Notes: a model not told the origin generated them from the sequence alone. Numbered from the stretch's first letter, positions 47,236 through 58,984 are shown. The stretch: DNA of 64,000 bases from Cryobacterium adonitolivorans (GCF_004402695.1 NZ_SOFL01000053.1:450-64449); one strand, 5' to 3'. Made by a program: numbers and translations.

Positions 47236-48092
47236 CCCTGGTGCTGGGCAGCCTGCTCGGTGCCGGGCTGGTGCTGCTGAGCGCACCGTTACTGTGGCCG
47301 GCCACCCCTGGTGCGTCCCGCGGCGGCCGACTGGTGTCGGGCTGGCGAGCCCGGCTCGCGCAGGCCGGCTTCGGGTCGGTGCCGGTGTCGGTGTTCGCCA
47401 CGCTGTCTGCGGTGCTCGCGGTGGCCGCAGCCGCGCTCGCCGAGGCGGTGCTCGGCGTGCGAGCGCTCACCCTGGTTGTCGGTATGGTCTGGCTGGTGCT
47501 GCCCACCCTCGTCGTGCTGTGGCGGGCCAGGGCAAGGCGGCGGCTGAACCGTACGGTCTGGCCCGATGTGGTCGACCACCTGGTCTCCGCCGTGCGGTCG
47601 GGGCTGGCGCTGCCCGATGCCGTGAGCAGCCTGGCGCAGGCCGGGCCGGTGGTCGCCCGTACGGCGTTCGCCGAGTTCGAGCGGGAGTACCGCGCCACCG
47701 GCAACTTCGGCTACAGCGCCGACAGGCTCAAAGCCTCCCTCGCCGACCCGTTCGCGGACCGGTTGATCGAGACGCTGCGGATGGCACGGGACGTGGGCGG
47801 CAGCGACCTCACCCTGGTGCTGCGCAGCCTGTCGAGCTGGTTGCGGCAGGATGCCGCGGTGCGGGCCGAGGTCGAGGCCAAGCAGTCCTGGGTGGTGAAC
47901 GCCGCCCGACTGGGCGTGGCGGCGCCGTGGATTGTGCTGGTGCTGATTAGCAGCCGGCCGGAGGCGGCACAGGCGTTCAACACTCCGGCCGGCACCGTCG
48001 TCATCCTGGGCGGTCTCACCGTCTCGGTGCTGGCCTATCGCGTGATGCTCATCGTGGGTCGTCTACCGGAGGAACGACGGTGGTTTCAGTGA
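47232..48092 (+). CDS. tadB: Tad pilus inner-membrane platform protein TadB
   Basis: 286 residues with a T2SSF-type domain. Hydrophobic helices lie at about 1-15, 55-100, 225-245 and 255-275. The core has DVVDHLVSAVRSGLALPDAVSSLA and RMARDVGGSDLTLVLRSLSSWLRQD, with ADPFADRLIETLR between. Works with TadC as the assembly platform. ATGA overlap with tadA and overlap with tadC indicate one operon. Confidence 0.9.
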   Translation: MTLVLGSLLGAGLVLLSAPLLWPATPGASRGGRLVSGWRARLAQAGFGSVPVSVFATLSAVLAVAAAALAEAVLGVRALTLVVGMVWLVLPTLVVLWRARARRRLNRTVWPDVVDHLVSAVRSGLALPDAVSSLAQAGPVVARTAFAEFEREYRATGNFGYSADRLKASLADPFADRLIETLRMARDVGGSDLTLVLRSLSSWLRQDAAVRAEVEAKQSWVVNAARLGVAAPWIVLVLISSRPEAAQAFNTPAGTVVILGGLTVSVLAYRVMLIVGRLPEERRWFQ

Positions 48093-48997
48093 CGGCGGTC
48101 GCCTGGGGTGCCTTCTTCGGGTCGGTGCTGGGTATCGGACTCTGGTCGCTGGTGAGCCTCACCCCACGGCTGAGCCGACCCCGGCTCGCGAACCGGTTGG
48201 CGCCGTACCTACTCGACGTGTCGGCCGAGGCCCGGGTCTTCGTGGGCCGCCGCTCGGTCGACCCGATCCCGGTCCTGGGCACTCTGTTCTCGCCGGTGTT
48301 CGAGGCCCTCGCACAGGCCCTGGCCAGTGCGCTCGGTGGCGCGGACGTCATCGAGCGTCGCCTCCGGCAATCGGGCTCCTCCCTCACCGTCGACGCCTTC
48401 CGCTCCGAGCAACTGGTCTGGGCGTTGATCGGCGCCGCCGGCGCGCTACTGTTCGCGCTTGGCACGCCGCTGGGCCGAAGCTGGCCGCTGATCGTGCAGG
48501 TCGCGGTGCCCGCTGTGGCGGCGGGGGCGGGGGTGTTGTTGCGGGACACCCAGTTGAAACGGGCGGCGACTGCACGCCTGGCTCGTATTGAAAGTGAGTT
48601 GCCCACCATCCTGGAATTCCTCACCCTGTCCCTCGCGGCCGGCGAGGGAATCCTCGATGCCCTGCGCCGCGTTTCCCGCAGCACCTCGGGGGAGTTGTCC
48701 CGCGAGTTCGCCGGGGTGATCGGCGACGTTCACGCCGGGGTGTCGCTCAGCACGGCGCTCACCGAACTATCCACCCGGATGAGCCTCATGTCGCTGACCC
48801 GGTTCGTGGACCAGGTCGTCGGGGCGATCGACCGCGGCTCCCCGCTCGCTGAAGTGCTGCGGGCCCAGGCCCAGGACGGACGGGAGGAAGCCAAACGGCA
48901 CCTGCTCGAGGCCGCGGGCAAGAAAGAGGTGGCCATGATGGTGCCGCTGGTGTTTCTGATCCTGCCGATGACCATTCTCTTGCTCACACGTCGCTAA
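48080..48997 (+). pseudogene. tadC: tadC, 3' end displaced by an integrated element
   Basis: 305 codons from GTG 48080 (GGAGG seven bases upstream). T2SSF domain with ARIESELPTILEFLTLSLAAGEG and FVDQVVGAIDRGSPLAEVLRAQAQ. Intact TadC proteins end in a last membrane segment of the type ILPxTxLFAxFPGLFVLQ. Here the frame reads ILPMTIL and then LLTRR-stop. The true end, FAIFPRLFVLQAGF-stop, lies at 58,940-58,984. Joining at TT gives a 314-codon gene. The present product lacks 14 residues of the last helix region; it might still be made, but assembly of the platform is probably impaired. Confidence 0.88.
48967..48997. other. attL: left junction of the integrative element
   Basis: tadC sequence ends at ...ACCATTCTC, the TT core is at 48980-48981, then element sequence begins with GCTC-ACACGT-CGC-TAA. 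The element's TAA also supplies the new tadC stop (48995-48997). Confidence 0.85.
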
Positions 48998-49007
48998 CCT
49001 GTACTTT

Positions 49008-50408
49008 GTGAAGCCTCCCATTGCTGCTGCTGCCTACGCCAGAATCTCCTCCGACCCCACAGGCCAGGGCCTTGGCGTTCAGCGGCAGTTGGAGGACTGC
49101 CGGAAACTGGCCGAATCTCGCGGTTGGTCAATAGCTGAGGAGTACGTCGACAACGACGTATCCGCGTTTGGACCCAAATCGCGTCCCGCCTACGTTCGTA
49201 TGTTGGATGACCTAGCGCGCGGTTTGCGCGACGGTGTGGTGGTGTACAACCTCGACAGGCTGCACCGTCAGCCACGTGAGCTTGAGGACTTCAATGCAAT
49301 CTGCAAGCGCGCGGGCGTAAGGCATGTCATCACCGTCACTGTGGACGTTGACCTGGGAAACGATGACGGCCTCTTCATGGCGCGAGTTATTGCAGCATTC
49401 GCCGCGAAGGAGAGCGGTCGGAAGTCGGCCCGTATCAAAAGGCAGGCACTCCAGCGCGCAGAGCAAGGAAGGCCCAGCCCGTCATTTAGGCGTCCTTTCG
49501 GGTACACGCAGGATCAGATGTTCGTTGTGGAATCCGAAGCCGCGGTCATCAAGGATCTAGTGGCCCGCTATATCGCGGGAGAGTCGATCAGTTCGTTGAC
49601 TGCCTGGCTCTCACGCGAAGAAGTGCCAACGGTTTCTGGCGCGGCATGGTCTCCAACAAGCGTGCGAAGCGTCATTCGCTCCCCACGAATCGCTGGGTTG
49701 CGTACTCACAATTCCGTAGTCATAGCTAAGGCTCTATGGCCTGCGATCATCTCTGAGGCAGAGCACGACCAAGTGATTGCCATGTCGAAGACGAAGCAGA
49801 TGCAGAACCGACGGGCACCACGTCGATATCTCCTGTCGGGCCTGCTCAGGTGCGGTCGGTGCGGGAGCAGGATGGCGTCGTCGTCCAAACACGGAAAGCG
49901 ATGGTACATCTGCCCACAGTCCCAAGGGCTCGCATCCTGTGGTCGGCTGTCGCTCGCGGCGGAATCAGCTGAACTCTGGATCGCGGAGGGTGTCCTAGCT
50001 CGGCTGGATTCGCCTGCGATGACGGCAACGTTAGCTGGCGGATCTGCGAACAATTACGTTCAGCCAGCCCTGGCCAAGGAACTTGAAGCCGACAGGGAGC
50101 AGCTTGTTGACCTTGGCCGAATGTTTGGCAACCGAGAAATTGGGGCGGAGGTTTGGAAAGCGGCAAGGGAGCCTATCGAATCACGTGTGCGGGTTGCAGA
50201 GCGGCGGCTAGCTGCTTCGTCACGAAATGATGCCCTGGGTGGGCTACCTCTTGGTTCTCCTGAACTGAGAAATAAGTGGACACAGCTCAATCTGACGCGA
50301 CAGGCGGCGATTATCGGCGCAGTCATTGATCACTTAGTTGTGGCTCCCGGCATTCCATGGGCGCGCGCCTTCGACCCTGACAGGCTTTCGCCAGTGTGGC
50401 GGCTGTAG
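49008..50408 (+). CDS. Serine recombinase (site-specific integrase)
   Basis: 466 residues, GTG start. The resolvase domain (1-150) has the catalytic Ser in AYARISSD (about residue 14), then YNLDRLHRQPRELEDF and AFAAKESGRKSARIKR. The recombinase domain (about 170-270) has RPFGYTQD and the helix VVIAKALWPAIISEAEHDQ. A zinc ribbon follows with CGRCGSRM and, further on, C-P-Q and C-G. A C-terminal coiled coil lies at about 355-400. It is on the short side for a large serine integrase. Position 26 bp inside attL is typical, and it should catalyse insertion of attP into the tadC attB. No excision-factor gene is recognised with certainty. Confidence 0.93.
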   Translation: MKPPIAAAAYARISSDPTGQGLGVQRQLEDCRKLAESRGWSIAEEYVDNDVSAFGPKSRPAYVRMLDDLARGLRDGVVVYNLDRLHRQPRELEDFNAICKRAGVRHVITVTVDVDLGNDDGLFMARVIAAFAAKESGRKSARIKRQALQRAEQGRPSPSFRRPFGYTQDQMFVVESEAAVIKDLVARYIAGESISSLTAWLSREEVPTVSGAAWSPTSVRSVIRSPRIAGLRTHNSVVIAKALWPAIISEAEHDQVIAMSKTKQMQNRRAPRRYLLSGLLRCGRCGSRMASSSKHGKRWYICPQSQGLASCGRLSLAAESAELWIAEGVLARLDSPAMTATLAGGSANNYVQPALAKELEADREQLVDLGRMFGNREIGAEVWKAAREPIESRVRVAERRLAASSRNDALGGLPLGSPELRNKWTQLNLTRQAAIIGAVIDHLVVAPGIPWARAFDPDRLSPVWRL

Positions 50409-50428
50409 GAGCCTAAGCAGGCTCGGGC

Positions 50429-50596
50429 TCAAGCAGCGTTCGCCAATGGCGGGCCGTGTGTCGCGCCTAGAAGCACGGCGACGGTCTGGATGGTGCGAGA
50501 GTCCGCTATGGACAGCGGGACGTTCTGAGCCTCGCACGACGCCTGGAGCCAAGCCATCAGCTGTTCTCGGTCGGGCGCATAAGTTATCTGCCCCAT
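50429..50596 (-). CDS. Small hypothetical protein of the element
   Basis: 55 residues from the ATG at 50594-50596. Sequence MGQITYAPDREQLMAWLQAS, then CEAQNVPLSIADSRTIQTVAVLLGA, looks like a compact helical protein rather than a shadow frame. It overlaps the end of the Rep gene by 13 bases on the same strand, so it may be coupled to it. A role as an excision or copy-control factor is possible but unproven. The ribosome binding site is weak. Confidence 0.45.
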   Translation of the reverse strand: MGQITYAPDREQLMAWLQASCEAQNVPLSIADSRTIQTVAVLLGATHGPPLANAA

Positions 50597-51396
50597 TGTG
50601 CCCACACGACCGGAGGTCCTTCCCATGTCGGCTCGGAGCGCGAAAGCCATTCAGTGGCGGGATACGACCCCATTGCTGAAGATGCCTGGTTAATGACGTC
50701 CTGGGCACTCTTCCCGACGAGTGCAACAGCCTTGGGCTGGAAACCTTGCGCCACGTCATACCGATGCATTCCTAGAACGCTCTGTGCACCCAGGAAGGTT
50801 TTCGAAACGTATTTGGCTAAGTACGACGCTGCGATGCGTGATTCGGAAAGTGAACCCGAGCCAACGGGAAGGTCTCCGATGAGCTTTATGTGTACGAATC
50901 CGTGGCCCCATGCTTTGTCAATGAGCTGTCGTTTTACGAACTGACCAACAGCGAAATGCGCGTGCAGGCCGTGTCCACCTGGGTGCCATTCGGGAACCCA
51001 GGCATAGGGGAGCGGGCCAACCTCAGCGCGAAGATTGCGGAAGAACTGTCCCAGGTCTTCTCTGACTTGATTTGGGTCATGGCACCCCTCACCTCGATAA
51101 GTCAAAGTTCCCAAGCGGTTCAGACGATTTGCGGCACAATATCTGCGCAACTTGGAGCGAGCGCGGCGTCCAGCCTCTTCCAACGACCGTTCAGGATTGG
51201 TTGCTTTTCCAGCTGGCACAAACGAAGATGCGCGTCGAACGGAGCCGCGAAAGCTACCCCCACCTTCACCGGCGGCTGGATACAGGGAGAACTGCCACCC
51301 CGAATCGGGCCGAGCGAGACTGCTCAGTGAAAGTCCGCTTGCGGTAGAGGTGCTCAGCGTCCTTCCTGAAGGAGCAGAGTCGCTAATTGTGGTCAT
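50584..51396 (-). CDS. HUH-type rolling-circle replication initiator
   Basis: 270 residues from the ATG at 51394-51396 (GGAAG upstream). It has a strand-rich core with motif 1-like LGTLTYRG (residues 95-102), the HUH motif variant H145-A-H147 in GLHAHFAVG, and motif 3 YLAKYVSK with candidate catalytic Tyr192 and Tyr196. This is the layout of Rep proteins of actinobacterial plasmids and filamentous-phage-like elements. It would nick a double-strand origin and start rolling-circle replication of the excised circle. The longer open frame to 51675 has a basic, compositionally odd N-terminus and is rejected. Confidence 0.8.
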   Translation of the reverse strand: MTTISDSAPSGRTLSTSTASGLSLSSLARPDSGWQFSLYPAAGEGGGSFRGSVRRASSFVPAGKATNPERSLEEAGRRARSKLRRYCAANRLNRLGTLTYRGEGCHDPNQVREDLGQFFRNLRAEVGPLPYAWVPEWHPGGHGLHAHFAVGQFVKRQLIDKAWGHGFVHIKLIGDLPVGSGSLSESRIAASYLAKYVSKTFLGAQSVLGMHRYDVAQGFQPKAVALVGKSAQDVINQASSAMGSYPATEWLSRSEPTWEGPPVVWAQWGR

Positions 51397-51634
51397 GGGG
51401 TTTTTCTTCCGAGTTACGTTGCTAATACAAGAAAAGGAGGAGACAGGTTTCCACGTGCGAACGTGGCCCATCGGTTGTTGTGCTGTTCTCCGGAGGCAGC
51501 GCCATCCGGACTGCGTCGGCACTCGGCGCTCCGTACTTCGTCGTTCTTCGCCCCTGGCGGGGCTACGCACTCCTCGCACATCGGCGCTCGGCCTCCTTGC
51601 CGGATGGCGCTCTCGGCGAGTGCTCCGGCATGAG

Positions 51635-51668
51635 CCAAGGGAGCGCGCAAACTCGCGCACTCCCTTGG
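51635..51668 (-). terminator. Strong hairpin between two element genes, possible origin structure
   Basis: CCAAGGGAG-C-GCGC ... GCGC-A-CTCCCTTGG, 13 paired positions with a short A-rich loop. It lies directly after the 190-residue gene and 240 bases upstream of rep. It fits a terminator, but the position near rep also allows a rolling-circle single- or double-strand origin. No T-tract follows on the minus strand. Confidence 0.55.
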
Positions 51669-51674
51669 GTGCCA

Positions 51675-52247
51675 CTATCTGACGCGCGCCCCGGGGTCGA
51701 CGCGCGCTTCAAGTTCAGCTGCCTTGGAAATCGCGCTGGAAAGCATGTCCCCAGCCACTTCGAAATCGGCAGCTATCTCTCGCACTCGAATCACGGATTC
51801 TGTCATCAGTCGCCGCTCAGTCGGGTGCCATCTGAATGGAGGCTCCCTCTTTGACGAATCATTGAGCGATTCCACGGCTGCCCTGTACTGCACTTCGAAA
51901 TTCCAGAGGGAATCGACCATCCCTGCAATTCGTTTGATGCCGTTTACACCACCCGCGTACCGTTTGACAGGTTGGAGCAGCTGACGCAGGGACTCAGTGA
52001 CGCGAATGAATCCCGGCCCGTTGTCGGGCACGAACACGAGCTCCAGCAGGTCGAGCTTCCTAGCCGTTACCGGCCCCCGACATGAGCTGGTCATGCGGAA
52101 CGCCGGGCCATCGATGATTTCCTTGTGAAGAGCTTTGATTGCTCCGCCGTAGTGAACCTCGAATCCCCGCAGCACGGACACGACTGCAAGCGCGCAATCG
52201 GCGTCGTAGGTCTCCGGACGGAGCGGAGGAACTTCCGGCTCACGCAC
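51675..52247 (-). CDS. Hypothetical protein of the element
   Basis: 190 residues, mostly helical, with a segment ALAVVSVLRGFEVHYGGAIKALHKEI near the N-terminus and VKRYAGGVNGIKRIAGMVDSLWNFEVQYRAAVESL in the middle (gapped). No transmembrane helix or catalytic motif. It overlaps the Pra-like gene by eight bases and precedes rep on the same strand, so a role in replication or its control is plausible. I do not recognise the family. Confidence 0.65.
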   Translation of the reverse strand: MREPEVPPLRPETYDADCALAVVSVLRGFEVHYGGAIKALHKEIIDGPAFRMTSSCRGPVTARKLDLLELVFVPDNGPGFIRVTESLRQLLQPVKRYAGGVNGIKRIAGMVDSLWNFEVQYRAAVESLNDSSKREPPFRWHPTERRLMTESVIRVREIAADFEVAGDMLSSAISKAAELEARVDPGARVR

Positions 52248-52563
52248 GGGCGCTGACCAACGAGATGCCCTCGGCTGCCCAGTAGAAGACGGCGTTGGTT
52301 CCGGAAACGTATGCCCCTGCTTCCAACCCGTGAAACTGGATTGGGACTCCGGGGTTGACGGTGGGCGGCTGCTCCGATGGGACAGTCACCTTCACCGAAA
52401 CCTGTCGGGCGACGATGAAAGCCACGACGGTCCACAACAGGCGCTTTCCATCCTTAGTGCGCTTCTGCTCCCTCGTTGTGAAATCCACCTTCGGCTCCAC
52501 CGACAGACCGAGCACGGGACCGATGTCGCCGACTGGAACAGTTGATGCGTTGTTGTTGCTCAT
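52240..52563 (-). CDS. Pra-like small protein (replication/integration/excision activator type)
   Basis: 107 residues from the ATG at 52561-52563 with AAGAGA upstream. Pattern: VEPKVDFTTREQKRTKDGKRLLWTVVAF, then VSVKVTVPSEQPPTVNPGVPIQFHGLEAGAYV and a final VFYWAAEGISLV (gapped). This matches, by recollection of the family, small proteins near replication genes in actinobacterial integrative elements, annotated as activators of replication, integration and excision. A single-strand DNA-binding role is an alternative. It lies 73 bases downstream of the tandem repeats and precedes the hypothetical gene and rep. Confidence 0.6.
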   Translation of the reverse strand: MSNNNASTVPVGDIGPVLGLSVEPKVDFTTREQKRTKDGKRLLWTVVAFIVARQVSVKVTVPSEQPPTVNPGVPIQFHGLEAGAYVSGTNAVFYWAAEGISLVSARA

Positions 52564-52635
52564 GATTTCTCTTTTCTTTAGGTGTTGGGGAACTACGGGT
52601 GTATTCCTCCTCCAGCTCCACCTGGCTTCTTGCTT

Positions 52636-52872
52636 CATGCGCGGCAGCTGACGTTTCCTGTGAGGGTTGGTCGTTTTGTGCTGCCGGTGTTTACATGCGC
52701 GGCAGCTGACGTTTCCTGTGAGGGTTGGTCGTTTTGTGCTGCCGGTGTTTACATGCGCGGCAGCTGACGTTTCCTGTGAGGGTTGGGTTGGTCGTTTTGT
52801 GCTGCCGGTGTATGCATGCGCGGCAGCTGACGTTTCCAGTGAAGGATGCACGTTCGGTCCTGCCGGTCGTGG
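52636..52872. repeat. 58-bp tandem repeats (three good units plus a degenerate fourth)
   Basis: Units start at 52636, 52694, 52752 (63 bp, with an extra GGTTG-type insertion) and 52815 (degenerate). Units 1 and 2 are identical or nearly so. Each unit has the inverted 7-mers CGGCAGC and GCTGCCG about 30 bases apart, so each can form a hairpin. They fill the divergent gap between the Pra-like gene and the HNH nuclease gene. There are no unique spacers. The rest of the 573-base gap (52,873-53,136) shows fading repeat similarity and no gene. Confidence 0.85.
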
Positions 52873-53136
52873 CACGCTCGGCAGAAAAAGGCGTCCCCAG
52901 TGGGAGACCCTGGCGTCACCAACGCGGACAGTCCGAACTCGCTGGGGCGGACCGGGCGGCGAGTCGAGGTCGACCCGCCTACGAGCTGCCGCAGTTATCC
53001 TTCGGATAACTTTTGCCACGAATGCCGAACGGCTGGCTTGTATTGAACGTCGCGACCCAGCGCGGGGGAAGCTGTTGCTTCGTTGTGATCGGAGTGGTGT
53101 TGTCGAGTCTTAAACTGCGTACAAATCGAGGGGGAC

Positions 53137-54210
53137 ATGATGCCAGAGGACTACCACCATCAATTCTTGAGGGAGCGCTCGCAGGAGTTCGGCGAAGACC
53201 GTTGCTTCATCTGCGGTCGCCACATACCGCTCGGTGATCCCTTTCGCACCGAGGAGCATGTGTTTCCGAAGTGGCTGCAGCGCGAACTGGATCTCTGGGA
53301 CGGCACGGTTCATCAGCTGAACGACGAACGCCTGGCATATCGTCGGCTTACCGTGCCATGTTGCAGCCCGTGCAACGGGGGAGACCTCAAGGCCGTAGAG
53401 GATCGAGTGAAGGCCGCGTTCCTAGAAGGGCTAGAGCCCTTCAAGAGATTGGATCGTCGCGACCTGTTTATCTGGTTCGGGAAGATCTATTACGGCATCG
53501 TCTACAAGGAAAGCCTCCGTCCGATGCTCGCCAGGGACCAAGACGGGCAGCGGCTTGTCCCAGAGTCACATCTCAAGACTGTGGCCTTCCATCACTTCTT
53601 GCTGCAATCGGCAGGAGGACACGTCAGTTGGCATCCTGAGCAGCCAGGACCCGCCAGCTTTCATTTCTTTGAATGTCTGGACTCCGACACTTCGACACGC
53701 CGGTTCGACTACCTGGATGATCTCTTCGTCCCGGTCCTCGGCCTTCGACTCGGGAAGATCGGTGTCGTGTGCGTTCTTCAAGACTGGGGGCGGTCCGAAA
53801 ACGTTCAACAGCTCCAGCTCAACGCAGCTCGTGAAATGCAGTTGCATCCAACGCAGTTCCGAGAGGCCTACGCGAGATTGAACTACATGACAAAGGTGTC
53901 TTGGAGCGACAAGAAGCACATGATCATCGGGGGAGACGGCTCGGCAGTCGTCATGGCGGGTGATCCGGGAGAGTTCACTGGAACATTCGTGGTCGAGGAC
54001 TACGCACAAATCTTGTCGTCGGTCTGGGAAGTGCCGCTTTCCTCTATATACCGGGACGGCTCCACCTTCTCAACAATCTGTGACCCGCTCGGACGTCCAA
54101 CGCCTGCCAAGAGTCATGACGTGCTGTTCTGCGCCCCACTGGGTAGTACAGGACTTTGGCCGGGGCATCTGGTGGATACGAGCAGCCACGAACATGAGGC
54201 GCTTCCCTAG
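53137..54210 (+). CDS. HNH-type nuclease, candidate restriction enzyme
   Basis: 357 residues. N-terminal HNH-like zinc site: C23-x2-C26, E40-H41-VFPKW, then CCSPCN with C76-x2-C79-N80. This EHVFPKW variant occurs in predicted HNH endonucleases. Residues 100-357 have no family I recognise; DLFIWFGKIYYGIVY suggests a helical region, and the rest is mixed alpha/beta. It is convergent with the DNA methyltransferase (stops one base apart), so the pair may be a restriction-modification unit. Its start is tandem ATG ATG. Confidence 0.7.
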   Translation: MMPEDYHHQFLRERSQEFGEDRCFICGRHIPLGDPFRTEEHVFPKWLQRELDLWDGTVHQLNDERLAYRRLTVPCCSPCNGGDLKAVEDRVKAAFLEGLEPFKRLDRRDLFIWFGKIYYGIVYKESLRPMLARDQDGQRLVPESHLKTVAFHHFLLQSAGGHVSWHPEQPGPASFHFFECLDSDTSTRRFDYLDDLFVPVLGLRLGKIGVVCVLQDWGRSENVQQLQLNAAREMQLHPTQFREAYARLNYMTKVSWSDKKHMIIGGDGSAVVMAGDPGEFTGTFVVEDYAQILSSVWEVPLSSIYRDGSTFSTICDPLGRPTPAKSHDVLFCAPLGSTGLWPGHLVDTSSHEHEALP

Positions 54211-54211
54211 C

Positions 54212-55327
54212 TCAGGCTTCCCATGCCAAGTCGAGACGACGAAAACGCGCACGAGCTAACTCAACGTATGAGCTTTCGAGATCAACGGAAACAACCCGAC
54301 CGCCAGCCCTGACGACCGCTTCTGCAACTGCTCCACTCCCACAAAACGGGTCAAGCCAAGTTGTCCCGTGTTTGACCCCCACGAGTGTACAAAGCCATTC
54401 AAGTAGGGCCTGGCTCTTCACCGTGGGGGCGCTTACTCCGTTCACTCGAGGTCGCTCAGACAGTGGCGCACGGGGCGCATATTTCAATGAAGAGAAGAAC
54501 CGGCTTGGTCGGTCCTTCCCATCGGCGTACTTGGTTCTGCCCTGTTCATCAATCGCCCGGAGCCCGCAGTCCTCAGAACATGCGGACGCGACGCACCCTC
54601 TAGCGTGTTCAAACAGGATGTTGGTGGGGTGCCGACCATCCGGCGCTGGTGTTGACCTAATCGCAGGTCGGGACACCGACCAAGCAGCAGACGGCGTTAC
54701 ACGTCCAGGGGTTCTTGCTCGACCCAGGTCGTCTGTCGGGATTCGAAGCGCTGCAGTGTGGAATCCGCCTGTGCCGCCGTTAGCGATCGCTCCAACGAGG
54801 GACTCATTCCGTTGCAAATTACGGGCGAGGGTAATCGGTTCGTACGCGGGCTTCAGATGTGACGTGTATCCCGTGTAGTCCGACGACAGGTCTTCAAAGC
54901 CAGTGCGATTTAGCTCGGTATCGATGCCGCGATTCCCTGGATTGAACCCATGGCTCTTCACATGGGCGACGGAATCGACGATCCGCCATCCTCCGTCTTC
55001 TATAGCGGTGGCCTGACGATGGCCGGTTCGACTGTGGCCGAAGGAAGCAAGGTTGCCGCCAGGCCTGACCACTTGCCTTAGCGCGGACCAGAAGGATGGG
55101 TCGAAAGCGATTCCGCTGGTGTCCCAATGCGAGCCTGAGCGACGGTCAGCAGTGATGCCAAGACCGTAAGGGGCATCGGAAATCACGCCGTCGAACTCCC
55201 CGGTATGCCCGGTAGACAGATAGTCGCGAATGTCGGCATTGATAAGTGTCGCTGCATCGCTCGGCATTCCCATAGGCCCAACGATACGAGACGGTGGTTC
55301 GGCCAGCTCCCTCGGACTCAACGGCAC
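54212..55327 (-). CDS. DNA methyltransferase (beta-class order, N4/N6 type)
   Basis: 371 residues, GTG start. Catalytic motif IV SDAPYG (D51-A-P-Y54) is near the N-terminus and the AdoMet-binding motif DPFCGSG (326-332) near the C-terminus. This order is that of beta-class adenine-N6/cytosine-N4 methyltransferases. The middle region (about 130-260) likely reads the target site. It is convergent with the HNH gene and divergent from the fused nuclease/methylase, with 74 bases between starts. The DAPY form deviates from canonical DPPY but is known among phage and plasmid enzymes. ATG 55271 is an alternative start. Confidence 0.83.
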   Translation of the reverse strand: MPLSPRELAEPPSRIVGPMGMPSDAATLINADIRDYLSTGHTGEFDGVISDAPYGLGITADRRSGSHWDTSGIAFDPSFWSALRQVVRPGGNLASFGHSRTGHRQATAIEDGGWRIVDSVAHVKSHGFNPGNRGIDTELNRTGFEDLSSDYTGYTSHLKPAYEPITLARNLQRNESLVGAIANGGTGGFHTAALRIPTDDLGRARTPGRVTPSAAWSVSRPAIRSTPAPDGRHPTNILFEHARGCVASACSEDCGLRAIDEQGRTKYADGKDRPSRFFSSLKYAPRAPLSERPRVNGVSAPTVKSQALLEWLCTLVGVKHGTTWLDPFCGSGAVAEAVVRAGGRVVSVDLESSYVELARARFRRLDLAWEA

Positions 55328-55401
55328 GCAGTCGATTGCCGACTCCAGGGTTGCGTCGTGCGCCGTCCTTCGCCACTGAGAGTTAACGGTTAGATGGGGG
55401 A

Positions 55402-58400
55402 ATGCCGACCAGTGCTGCCGATGATTACGTCTCGGTCCTCCGTGATATCCAGCTTTCGCCTCATGCCGTCGAACCGGAGGCCCAGCTGACCAGGCCAGTC
55501 GCGGATCTGTTTGAAGGCCTCAGCCGGGAAGCAGGCATTGGCGTACTCTTCCTGCAGCGGGAGGCTCAGCTTGAAGGAGTGCGACCTGATTTCGCAGCAT
55601 CGATAGATGGACGGCCTTGTGGATGGGTAGAGCTCAAGCGGCCAGGCCACTCCCTCGAAGGATCAGAGTGGATGGGACGCGAAATAGCGCAATGGGCTTC
55701 GCTGGCCCAACTCGACTCCCTTCTGGTCTGCAACGGGGAAGCAGTTCGCCTTTACCGCGCGGGTGAGCAGATTGGCGAAGAAGCTATCCTGCCATCTGAC
55801 GACGGCACATGGGACGGGGCGCCCCTAGTCGCGTTATTGCAACTTTTCGCGACGATGAGACCGCCAGTGATTCGTGGTGTTCACCAGCTGGCAGTGGTCC
55901 TAGCCCCTATGGCGCGGCTATTGCGGGAACGAGTAGCCGCCGGTCTGACCGATGAGACGCCAAGGCCCGTCATCGCACAAGCGAAGGCGGTGTGGGCGGC
56001 AAACGTTCACGAGAAAGTAACCGACTCTCAATTTGCGTCCGACTTGGCACAGGTGATTGCCTACAGCCTCGCCATCGCAGCGTTGAGCGGCGGCGGAGAT
56101 TCGAACGACGACGGCTTTGTGTCCTTGTCAGAGGCCCGACAAACCCTCCGGATCAGCAATGCAGTTCTTGCCGCCGCCCTTGGTCCGGTACTCGATATCC
56201 CTGGGCTTTCGGAAGAACTAGCCGTTGAGATTGGTGCCATCGAACGCTTGGTGTCAGTCGTTGACAGCCGAGCGATTGGGGCGGCCAAGGACAACCGAGG
56301 TGAACCGTGGTTGTGGTTCTACGAGGATTTCCTCTATGCGTACGATCCAATCGCGCGGGAGAAGGCCGGCGTGTATTACACGCCAGTCGATGTTGTGCAG
56401 TCTCAGGTTCAGCACGTCGACTTCATTCTCAGGAAGCTATTTTCGAAGAAGCTCAGCTTCGCTGATGCTTCGGTTGTCACGTTGGACCCCGCAGCAGGAT
56501 CGGGCACGTACCCCCTGGCTGTGATCGACCAGGCGCAGAAAGTCGCAATAGAGGTGCGTGGCGCGGCGGGGCCCAAGCAGGTTGTGAAACAACTAGCGGC
56601 CAACGTGATCGCCTTTGAGATACTGCCGGGGCCTTACGCAGTGGCCCAGCTGCGGATTGGCCGTCGGCTCGCCGACATGGACAACTCGTTGTTCCCGCCC
56701 GGGAACGTCAGGGTCTACTTGACAGACACTCTTGAAGATCCGAATGTGATTCCTGTTGCACTGCCCCTTTGGGGAGATGTCCAAGTGTTGGCCGAGGAGA
56801 GGGAACGTGCACGCGGGGTAAAGCACGACCAGCCCGTCACGGTAATCCTCGGCAACCCACCTTACGAACGAGGAGTAAAGGCAGACGGTAAGTGGGTTGT
56901 CAACCCGTCTAGCGGACGGTCGTTGTTTGACGATGTGATCGAGCCTGCGAAGACGGCTGGCATCATCTTCAGCGCCCAAGCAAGCCTTTACAACCACTAC
57001 GTCTACTTCTGGAGATGGGCACTCTGGAAAGCGTTTGAACAAGAACCCGACAGTCCAGCTGTTGTCAGCTTCATCACGGCATCCTCGTGGCTGAGCAATC
57101 CAGTCTTCGTGGGCCTGAGAGGTATTGCCCTTGAACATGCCGACGAAATTTGGGTGACGGACTTGGGCGGTGAGGGGCGGGGCAACAACGCTGAAGACAA
57201 CGTATTTGCGATTCAGACGCCCGTCGCTATCGTGACGGTATTCCGACGGGGGAAGGGCCAGAAGACGCCCGCCACGGTTTATTACCGGCGGGTCTCCGGT
57301 AAGAGGGCGGACAAGCTCCACGAGCTTCGGACGTTGTCGAATCCGCACGAGTCACCAAGTGACTGGACGGAACTTGCGGGCAACGCCACGCTCGGCTTTG
57401 TTCCAATTCCGGCCCGTACTCAATGGGAGACGTTTCCCAACCTCGTAGACATTTTTCCCTGGCAGCAGCCAGGCGTGAAGGTCAACCGGGCGTGGCCCTA
57501 CGCCACTCAACGAGAGGTCTTGCGGAAGCGTTGGGACTCCTTGCTCGCAACGCCGAACGCAGTCGCACGCGCAGAGAAGTTCGTCACTCCGTCGTCCGGC
57601 CGCAACATATTCACTCAGGTCTCTGGGATGCAGAAGATTTCGGAACTCCTCCCGGGAGCCAGCCCTCGTTCCATAGTCAGATACGCCGCCCGCCCGTTCG
57701 ATCAGCAATGGATTCTCAATGATCCCCGCTTGATAAATCTCGAACGACCGGCGCTCTGGGCATCGCTGTCCCACCAACAACTATTTATGTGTTCGATGAA
57801 CACGAGTCCCTTGGGCCATGGCCCGGCCATCACCGTAGCCGTAGCCCCGCCCGACTTGCACTATTTCAGAGGGAGCTTCGGAGGAAAGGATGTGATTCCG
57901 CTCTATCGGGACGCCACCGGAACTCCGAACCTACCGGCAGGACTAACGGCGCTCCTCGCCGTGACCTATGGCTATGCCGTCGCACCGGAGGACGTCGCGG
58001 CATACGCTTTCGGCATCCTCGCCCAGCCAGGCTTTCGTGAACTGTTCAAGTCCGAGTTGGAGGTTCCGGGGGCGAGAGTGCCATTTACCAAGGACCCGAT
58101 CCTGTTTGCGCGCACACGCGACGTTGGAGCTGACCTCATCTACGCGCAAACATTCGGTTCCCGCCTAACAAGTCGCGCGTCTAAGGACGACTTTTCACAA
58201 CTATTCGGACTCACTTGGCTCAAACCCGTTACTCGCCTTCACGACGATTCTGAAATTTCGTATGACGCACCAACGAGGACGTTGACTGTGGCCGACGGCG
58301 AACTGACTGGCGTATCCCCGGACGTGTGGGAGTTCTCTGTGAGTGGATGGCCGGTGGTACAACGGTGGCTGCAGAACAGGAGCGCCCTCGGGCGGGGCCA

Positions 58401-58620
58401 TATCCGGACGAAGCCGAAACCGCTCGACAAGATCCGTCCCACTCAGTGGATAGACGAGTGGAACGATGAACTGCTCGACCTCCTCAAGGCACTCACTCGG
58501 ACAGTCAACCTAAAGGCCGAACAAGAGCTCTTGCTTCAGGAAGTGCTCCAATCGGACCTTTTCGACGTCGCAGAGTTCCCTATTCCCACGGACGCGGAGC
58601 GAGCAGAACCGAGCCACTAG
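55402..58620 (+). CDS. Fused restriction nuclease/adenine methylase (type IIG-like)
   Basis: 1,072 residues. The N-terminal PD-(D/E)xK nuclease reads RPDF (D63) then VELK (E77, K79). A helical linker is followed by an N6-adenine methylase core with WLWFYEDFLYAYD, motif I LDPAAGSGT (D362) and motif IV NPPY (485-488). The C-terminal part (about 640-1,000) resembles the specificity region of type IIG/type ISP enzymes, but there is no helicase between nuclease and methylase. A single protein would both cut and modify. The separate methyltransferase next to it may protect the second strand. Confidence 0.82.
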   Translation: MPTSAADDYVSVLRDIQLSPHAVEPEAQLTRPVADLFEGLSREAGIGVLFLQREAQLEGVRPDFAASIDGRPCGWVELKRPGHSLEGSEWMGREIAQWASLAQLDSLLVCNGEAVRLYRAGEQIGEEAILPSDDGTWDGAPLVALLQLFATMRPPVIRGVHQLAVVLAPMARLLRERVAAGLTDETPRPVIAQAKAVWAANVHEKVTDSQFASDLAQVIAYSLAIAALSGGGDSNDDGFVSLSEARQTLRISNAVLAAALGPVLDIPGLSEELAVEIGAIERLVSVVDSRAIGAAKDNRGEPWLWFYEDFLYAYDPIAREKAGVYYTPVDVVQSQVQHVDFILRKLFSKKLSFADASVVTLDPAAGSGTYPLAVIDQAQKVAIEVRGAAGPKQVVKQLAANVIAFEILPGPYAVAQLRIGRRLADMDNSLFPPGNVRVYLTDTLEDPNVIPVALPLWGDVQVLAEERERARGVKHDQPVTVILGNPPYERGVKADGKWVVNPSSGRSLFDDVIEPAKTAGIIFSAQASLYNHYVYFWRWALWKAFEQEPDSPAVVSFITASSWLSNPVFVGLRGIALEHADEIWVTDLGGEGRGNNAEDNVFAIQTPVAIVTVFRRGKGQKTPATVYYRRVSGKRADKLHELRTLSNPHESPSDWTELAGNATLGFVPIPARTQWETFPNLVDIFPWQQPGVKVNRAWPYATQREVLRKRWDSLLATPNAVARAEKFVTPSSGRNIFTQVSGMQKISELLPGASPRSIVRYAARPFDQQWILNDPRLINLERPALWASLSHQQLFMCSMNTSPLGHGPAITVAVAPPDLHYFRGSFGGKDVIPLYRDATGTPNLPAGLTALLAVTYGYAVAPEDVAAYAFGILAQPGFRELFKSELEVPGARVPFTKDPILFARTRDVGADLIYAQTFGSRLTSRASKDDFSQLFGLTWLKPVTRLHDDSEISYDAPTRTLTVADGELTGVSPDVWEFSVSGWPVVQRWLQNRSALGRGHIRTKPKPLDKIRPTQWIDEWNDELLDLLKALTRTVNLKAEQELLLQEVLQSDLFDVAEFPIPTDAERAEPSH

Positions 58621-58644
58621 GAACCTACGGGGCGACGCGAGTCG

Positions 58645-58727
58645 GGGCGGAGTCGAACCGATTGCCGCGCGGTAGTGAATCAGCGACCCGTCGACTCCTC
58701 TACAGAGGTGCGCCAACCGCCCCCATG
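58645..58727 (-). other. tRNA-like palindromic sequence near the right end of the element
   Basis: On the minus strand GGGGCGG pairs with CCGCCCC over 7 bp, and GGTTCGA sits where a T-loop would be. The T-stem is only three pairs, the D-arm lacks GG, and no good anticodon stem forms. It may be a decayed tRNA or a terminator after the nuclease/methylase gene. The 439-base gap (58,621-59,059) otherwise holds attR and no gene. Confidence 0.3.
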
Positions 58728-58923
58728 TTCCCGTCGAGGTGCGGCAGGTTGGCCTGCATAGACGCCGATCTTGGACTGTCTTTTCGTCACCACTAGTCTT
58801 CGGGCGGCTGCGGGCACACTTGGCGACCCGTTGGATCTCTGACGCGTCTACGTCCTCAACGGGCCGTAGGGCCTGGGGGTGTTTGCAGTACCCATTTTTC
58901 AAGGCAATTCCAGAAAAGATGCA

Positions 58924-58984
58924 TTAAGAACGTGTCGGGTTTGCGATTTTCCCCAGGCTGTTCGTGCTGCAGGCCGGCTTCTAG
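58924..58984 (+). other. tadC: attR and displaced 3' end of tadC
   Basis: Element sequence TTA-AGA-ACGTGT-CGGG ends at the TT core (58940-58941). From 58940 the frame reads TTT GCG ATT TTC CCC ... GGC TTC TAG, encoding FAIFPRLFVLQAGF, the expected TadC C-terminus, ending at 58,984. Confidence 0.88.

Follow-up and report, generated by a model that had tools for sequence, protein, structure and literature searches.

Three restriction- and defence-type genes of Cryobacterium adonitolivorans are probably separate cargo of a small integrative element

Restriction-modification (R-M) enzymes which hold all of their domains in one chain are known from Thermus, where TaqIII, TaqII and TspGWI (type IIC/IIL; PMC5587805, PMC3384240) share an R-Mh-M-TRD architecture of approximately 1100 amino acids, the motifs DPAxG(S/T)G and NPPY and a Type ISP-like target recognition domain (TRD), and are standalone and borne on plasmids or other mobile genetic elements. 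Orphan methylases of the permuted beta class, including Nerujay gp61 and Quico gp82 (PHROG 67), are found in mycobacteriophages and other actinophages, and actinomycete integrative elements (AICEs; PMC3218068; L077 and L079 among our comparison loci) carry a serine recombinase and a replication initiator side by side, together with an FtsK-like transfer gene. Here we describe a locus which resembles each of these, located in 64,000 nucleotides of Cryobacterium adonitolivorans DNA (GCF_004402695.1 NZ_SOFL01000053.1:450-64449; hereafter the window, from whose first letter positions are counted). A preliminary description had presented three of its genes as restriction/defence cargo, forming either one composite system or two overlapping R-M systems. 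We found that one of the three encodes a single-chain R-M enzyme which is ordinary and well classified, another a methylase of the phage type and the third an HNH-like nuclease of an uncharacterised kind; a mobile element unites them, and they are probably independent passengers of it:

53137-54210, plus strand: HNH-like nuclease gene, open reading frame (ORF) of 357 amino acids
54212-55327, minus strand: methyltransferase gene, ORF of 371 amino acids
55402-58620, plus strand: fused restriction-methylase gene (type IIG), ORF of 1072 amino acids

Independence was assessed with tblastn, comparing all window proteins to the neighbourhoods of relatives of each gene, which covered 6 to 20 kb, in most cases with a few kb to 10 kb per side. 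Homologues of the other two genes were found in the neighbourhoods of 0/8 IIG relatives, 0/10 HNH relatives and 0/9 methyltransferase relatives; thus all nine of the latter have neither an HNH nor an IIG homologue beside them, and in the window the HNH gene is one base away. As no relative neighbourhood holds a second gene of the three, we consider the genes to be probably independent, their proximity being explained by the single element that carries them all. A motif scan for any methyltransferase gave one hit in the ten HNH neighbourhoods, to a separate ParB-like/methyltransferase prophage gene. The same three-gene set was found near none of the 27 relatives, the genes occurring independently of one another, and the neighbourhoods compared provided no evidence of a new three-part defence system. 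The analysis therefore tells a coincidental gene neighbourhood apart from a system. A single composite restriction system made up of all three genes is extremely improbable: adjacency within one element is the only point in its favour, whereas the IIG protein itself has nuclease, methylase and recognition domains and no relative of any gene (0/27) has a second member of the set nearby.

The layout of the genes was as previously described: according to the ORF coordinates, the facing stops of the HNH and methyltransferase genes lie on opposite strands with a single base (54211) between them, and the methyltransferase and IIG genes are divergent, with a gap of 74 bp. All three ORFs are real genes, since homologues align across most of the length of each protein. 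They are foreign DNA, as their GC content at third codon positions (GC3) is 58-68% compared to 81-93% in the flanking host genes, and GC content drops from approximately 68% to 59% across 50-58 kb of the window. It should be noted that some points weigh against independence. Convergent genes with one base between them are what a pair acquired together might look like. Identity to the nearest relatives is no higher than 57% for the HNH protein and approximately 35% for the methyltransferase; with relatives this distant, a local HNH/methyltransferase partnership could have arisen unseen in this lineage. The relatives in this pairing test were 23-57% identical and the tree near the locus is poorly sampled. 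HNH nucleases are present in known type II enzymes, and the HNH and methyltransferase genes, convergent neighbours one base apart which both have low GC3, might form a conventional type II R-M system of two genes, to which the IIG enzyme would be unrelated, the methyltransferase protecting the site which the HNH protein cuts. We consider this unlikely, as no HNH relative (0/10) was near a methyltransferase homologue, no methyltransferase relative (0/9) was near an HNH homologue and the methyltransferase belongs to an orphan, phage-borne family. Two overlapping R-M systems, with this pair as the second, are thus without support from the relatives; the label of restriction/defence cargo holds good, the genes lying within an integrated element whose relatives bear defence-type genes.

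As one of three independent passengers, the IIG protein would be a complete R-M system in itself. The PADLOC model REase_MTase_IIG (PDLC03631) spans residues 10-1070 (2e-250), and Pfam Type_ISP_C, a name which here refers to the TRD only, matches residues 683-1027 (1e-62). The nuclease motif P62 D63 ... E77 L78 K79, invariant in our IIG alignment, is an exact PD-X13-E-X-K, the motif of the TspGWI subfamily (PMC3384240), and the domain order is that of the gamma class, with DPAAGSG at 362-368 followed by NPPY at 485-488 and then the TRD. The protein is approximately 38% identical over its full length to a 1101-amino-acid protein on an 11-kb plasmid of T. aquaticus YT-1 (L045), which we take to be TaqIII (PMC5587805) because its length, plasmid location and residues P737, Y777, R820 and S822 match those published. 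It also has 52-54% full-length identity to "Type ISP restriction/modification enzymes" of Citricoccus and other actinobacteria (L044, L062). These features place it, by sequence, among the single-chain restriction endonuclease-methyltransferases (type IIG/IIC/IIL) of the TaqIII/TspGWI family, although its host is a mesophilic actinobacterium rather than Thermus. Since nuclease, methylase and recognition domains share one chain, its anatomy suggests that it is self-sufficient and needs no partner. Membership of the LlaGI-like type ISP enzymes was rejected, the protein having 1072 rather than approximately 1600 amino acids and no match in Pfam to the helicase-type ATPase domain which those enzymes have between nuclease and methylase; LlaBIII and LlaGI match it at residues 279-647 only.

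The recognition site was predicted by mapping published TRD contacts onto the IIG protein of the window, using three characterised homologues. TaqIII residues H817, R820, S822, G586 and N594 are conserved, whereas the window protein departs from TaqIII in having N for K688 and P for S683, as well as at 737, 776 and 777. In this numbering, H817 predicts C at site position 3, and R820/S822 with a TaqIII-type extra residue predict C at position 4, at whose contact L062 has the motif CNR, unlike the window protein. N at 688, which specifies T in LlaGI, predicts T and not C at position 2, N6-methyladenine (m6A) is predicted at position 5, and G586/N594 predict a position 6 without specificity. The site would be 5'-(N)(N)TCCA-3', asymmetric and approximately 6 bp long. 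The enzyme would methylate its final A in one strand only and, by homology to TaqIII, would cleave DNA lacking this modification approximately 11/9 nt downstream, at a fixed distance. Reading the protein as a IIG enzyme therefore yields a concrete prediction, namely m6A in a site ending TCCA.

The methyltransferase matched Pfam N6_N4_Mtase (1.7e-10) and PHROG 67 (2.8e-23) and has a permuted order, with the motif IV sequence DAPY near the N-terminus (51-54) and the S-adenosylmethionine-binding motif DPFCGSG at approximately 326-332, features typical of beta-class, circularly permuted N6/N4 enzymes of the phage orphan type. Its relatives comprise 399 records of DNA methylases from phages, mycobacteriophages included, as well as methylases encoded on plasmids, several of which are phage-like; they sit in phage replication regions, in mycobacteriophages and on phage-like plasmids. 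The window enzyme shares with the Nerujay gp61/Quico gp82 type the permuted beta-class order and the motifs LKPxxEPI, RFF and TVK, but has approximately 35% identity and is found in a chromosomal integrative element and not in a phage replication module. Most likely it modifies element or host DNA, which would shield it from restriction. The preliminary description had rightly drawn attention to DAPY in place of DPPY (D51-A52-P53-Y54). D51, P53 and Y54 are invariant in our alignment while the first P of the motif varies, being A here and F (DFPY) in a C. difficile plasmid relative; this position is therefore tolerant, and DAPY is best regarded as a minor variant and not a new catalytic type. 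A literature search for DAPY methyltransferases found nothing relevant. Reduced activity is possible because of other motif departures, such as APTVKS in place of HPTVKP in the alignment. Several conserved family positions are altered in total, and the gene could be decaying, with DAPY and APTVKS marking an inactive copy; this is rather unlikely, however, given that the frame is intact, that motif IV keeps its D, second P and Y and motif I its glycines, and that the DFPY relative indicates a variable first P.

In the HNH-like protein, the HNH region covers approximately residues 23-80, the rest being a conserved C-terminal region. The HNH-type residues C23, C26, E40-H41, C75-C76 and C79-N80 (CxxC...EH...CC..CN) were invariant in alignments of 8 and 6 homologues, as was a set of C-terminal residues, in homologues 23-57% identical. 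The match to Pfam HNH_5 (PF14279), at 11.3 bits, was far below the cut-off of 27.5, and no curated family covers the protein. The large C-terminal region, which had been described as of unknown type, indeed gave no family match. The closest relative was L004 (57% identical); L003 is approximately 33% identical, and others come from Actinomycetota, Bacillota, Alphaproteobacteria, prophages and plasmids, although the family is sparse, being present in 2/296 actinobacterial genomes including that of the window. The protein is a member of an unnamed, uncharacterised full-length family. The predicted model had a pLDDT (predicted local distance difference test) score of 74.6, and the C-terminal region, when folded alone, was modelled with low confidence (44.9). 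Foldseek searches of the model against PDB and BFVD gave no match at E ≤ 0.001, and the missing structural match for the C-terminal region does not indicate a new fold. A second look brought up T4 endonuclease VII (Z 2.8) and an HNH nickase from Geobacter (Z 2.5) as weak matches; the other VIA-align matches were rejected as mostly helical look-alikes.

Relatives of the HNH gene stand alone or have unrelated neighbours, for example a gene for DUF6932 in L004 and one for NOV_C/DUF3883 in L040. One of them (L054 2594-3619) is flanked in a prophage by the genes for the terminase large subunit and the portal, a spot typical of inserted nuclease genes. Together with further single-gene prophage relatives, one (L053) flanked by a serine recombinase and by structural genes and one (L055) within a group of replication genes, this could point to a free-standing nuclease of the homing type, a selfish passenger and not a defence gene. 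This is improbable, because relatives are also found on conjugative plasmids, away from phage genes, and beside NOV_C/DUF3883 or DUF6932 genes which match PADLOC candidates, and no intron or intein was seen. Within the set of independent passengers, we consider the HNH protein to be a free-standing DNA nuclease, most likely serving as a separate gene for defence or competition between elements.

The element which carries the three genes was delimited by aligning both flanks to relatives of the same genus with an empty site (L007-L012), and its features, other than the three genes, are as follows:

48980-58941, no strand: whole integrated element, approximately 9.96 kb
48080-48997: tadC-like gene within a tad cluster, truncated at its 3' end by the element
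48980-48981 (attL) and 58940-58941 (attR): probable crossover dinucleotide TT
49008-50408, plus strand: large serine integrase (Pfam Resolvase/Recombinase/Zn_ribbon_recom; PHROG 95 integrase, 1.8e-89)
50584-51675, minus strand: rolling-circle-type replication initiator (REP_ORF2-G2P), the G2P-like Rep (Pfam PF23343, 3.6e-15; PHROG 3419)
51675-52247, minus strand: ORF of 190 amino acids adjoining rep, no Pfam or PADLOC match
52606-52884, no strand: four imperfect tandem repeats of approximately 58 bp each, upstream of the rep group and between it and the cargo

The left flank matched the empty-site relatives to approximately 48981 and the right flank from approximately 58935-58939, and the two flanks are contiguous in these relatives. 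Joining the window flanks at TT gives a reading frame ending ...MTILFAIFPRLFVLQAGF before the stop codon, whereas the element-bearing tadC-like gene terminates in MTILLLTRR; the empty-site relatives end in MTI(L/V)FAIFPGLFVLQAGF at the joined site. The boundaries are shown by this recovery of the C-terminus of the empty-site relatives, and crossover probably took place at TT itself. The serine integrase would have inserted the element into the 3' end of the tadC-like gene, and replication of the excised form is presumably the task of the G2P-like Rep. In three more genomes of the genus (L006, L017, L019), tadE has another serine integrase, only 24-30% similar, as its neighbour, so that insertion at the tadC 3' end may be a recurrent event. 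A stretch resembling a degenerate tRNA, whose 7-bp stem is GGGGCGG/CCGCCCC and whose loop is TTCGA, lies near the right end of the element (58640-58725, minus strand); a tRNA here was rejected, as neither ARAGORN nor Rfam gave a match.

Rep was present in 4/56 other genomes of the genus and in 4/119 other sampled genomes of the family, two of these Rep genes being split in two frames; one of the family genomes (G725, split Rep) was left out of the integrase comparison. The integrase (38-53% identical) and Rep (62-67% identical) were found side by side in seven other genomes (L058, L059, L060, L061, L086, L087 and L088). The cargo, counted as such by position, is different in each of these and mostly of defence type:

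L059: PIN_8
L060: RelA/SpoT; PADLOC PDC-S33
L061: Hypoth_Ymh; PADLOC Aga_HEPN and PD-Lambda-3_B, weak
L087: AIPR/AbiU
L088: TIR
L058 and L086: two proteins of 412 and 426 amino acids, no convincing match

The three genes of the window occupy this cargo position too, with rep on one side and the distal attachment (att) site on the other. A DUF222-HNH (13E12-type) host gene at the far edge of the element stops within conserved HNH codons in three of the seven relatives (L058 11543-12928; L059 6073-7476; L061 6738-8378), which suggests that attB of these elements lies within the HNH motif of such a gene. This small element family of actinobacteria repeatedly bears defence-type genes (R-M, AIPR/AbiU, TIR, RelA/SpoT, PIN and HEPN-like), and is more interesting than the three-gene set itself. 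The cargo position is therefore worth searching for new antiphage genes, for example the unnamed HNH family and the 412- and 426-amino-acid proteins. A more tentative proposal, for which we see a reasonable but not the better case, is that minimal serine-integrase/G2P-Rep elements, lodged in conserved host codons (of DUF222-HNH genes in several relatives and of tadC here), are a family of dedicated, exchangeable carriers for antiphage genes, whose cargo includes an undescribed, cross-phylum HNH family which is itself a defence system.

The element differs from AICEs of the L077/L079 type in having a G2P-like Rep and apparently in lacking an FtsK-like transfer gene: no FtsK/SpoIIIE gene was seen among the element ORFs read, and the 190-amino-acid ORF and a doubtful ORF of 259 amino acids match no family. 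A literature search for this integrase/G2P-Rep element type found nothing relevant except the AICE survey (PMC3218068). Rep had no tblastn match in plasmid or phage collections, and neither Rep nor the IIG protein had a match in viral-contig scans. As the conserved part of Rep covers only approximately residues 105-363, its true start may be internal. The tandem repeats, possibly an origin or iterons, overlap the 5' part of the doubtful 259-amino-acid ORF. A related integrase was also observed on a Gordonia plasmid (L078 9001-10414), where it is split in two frames and has no annotated gene.

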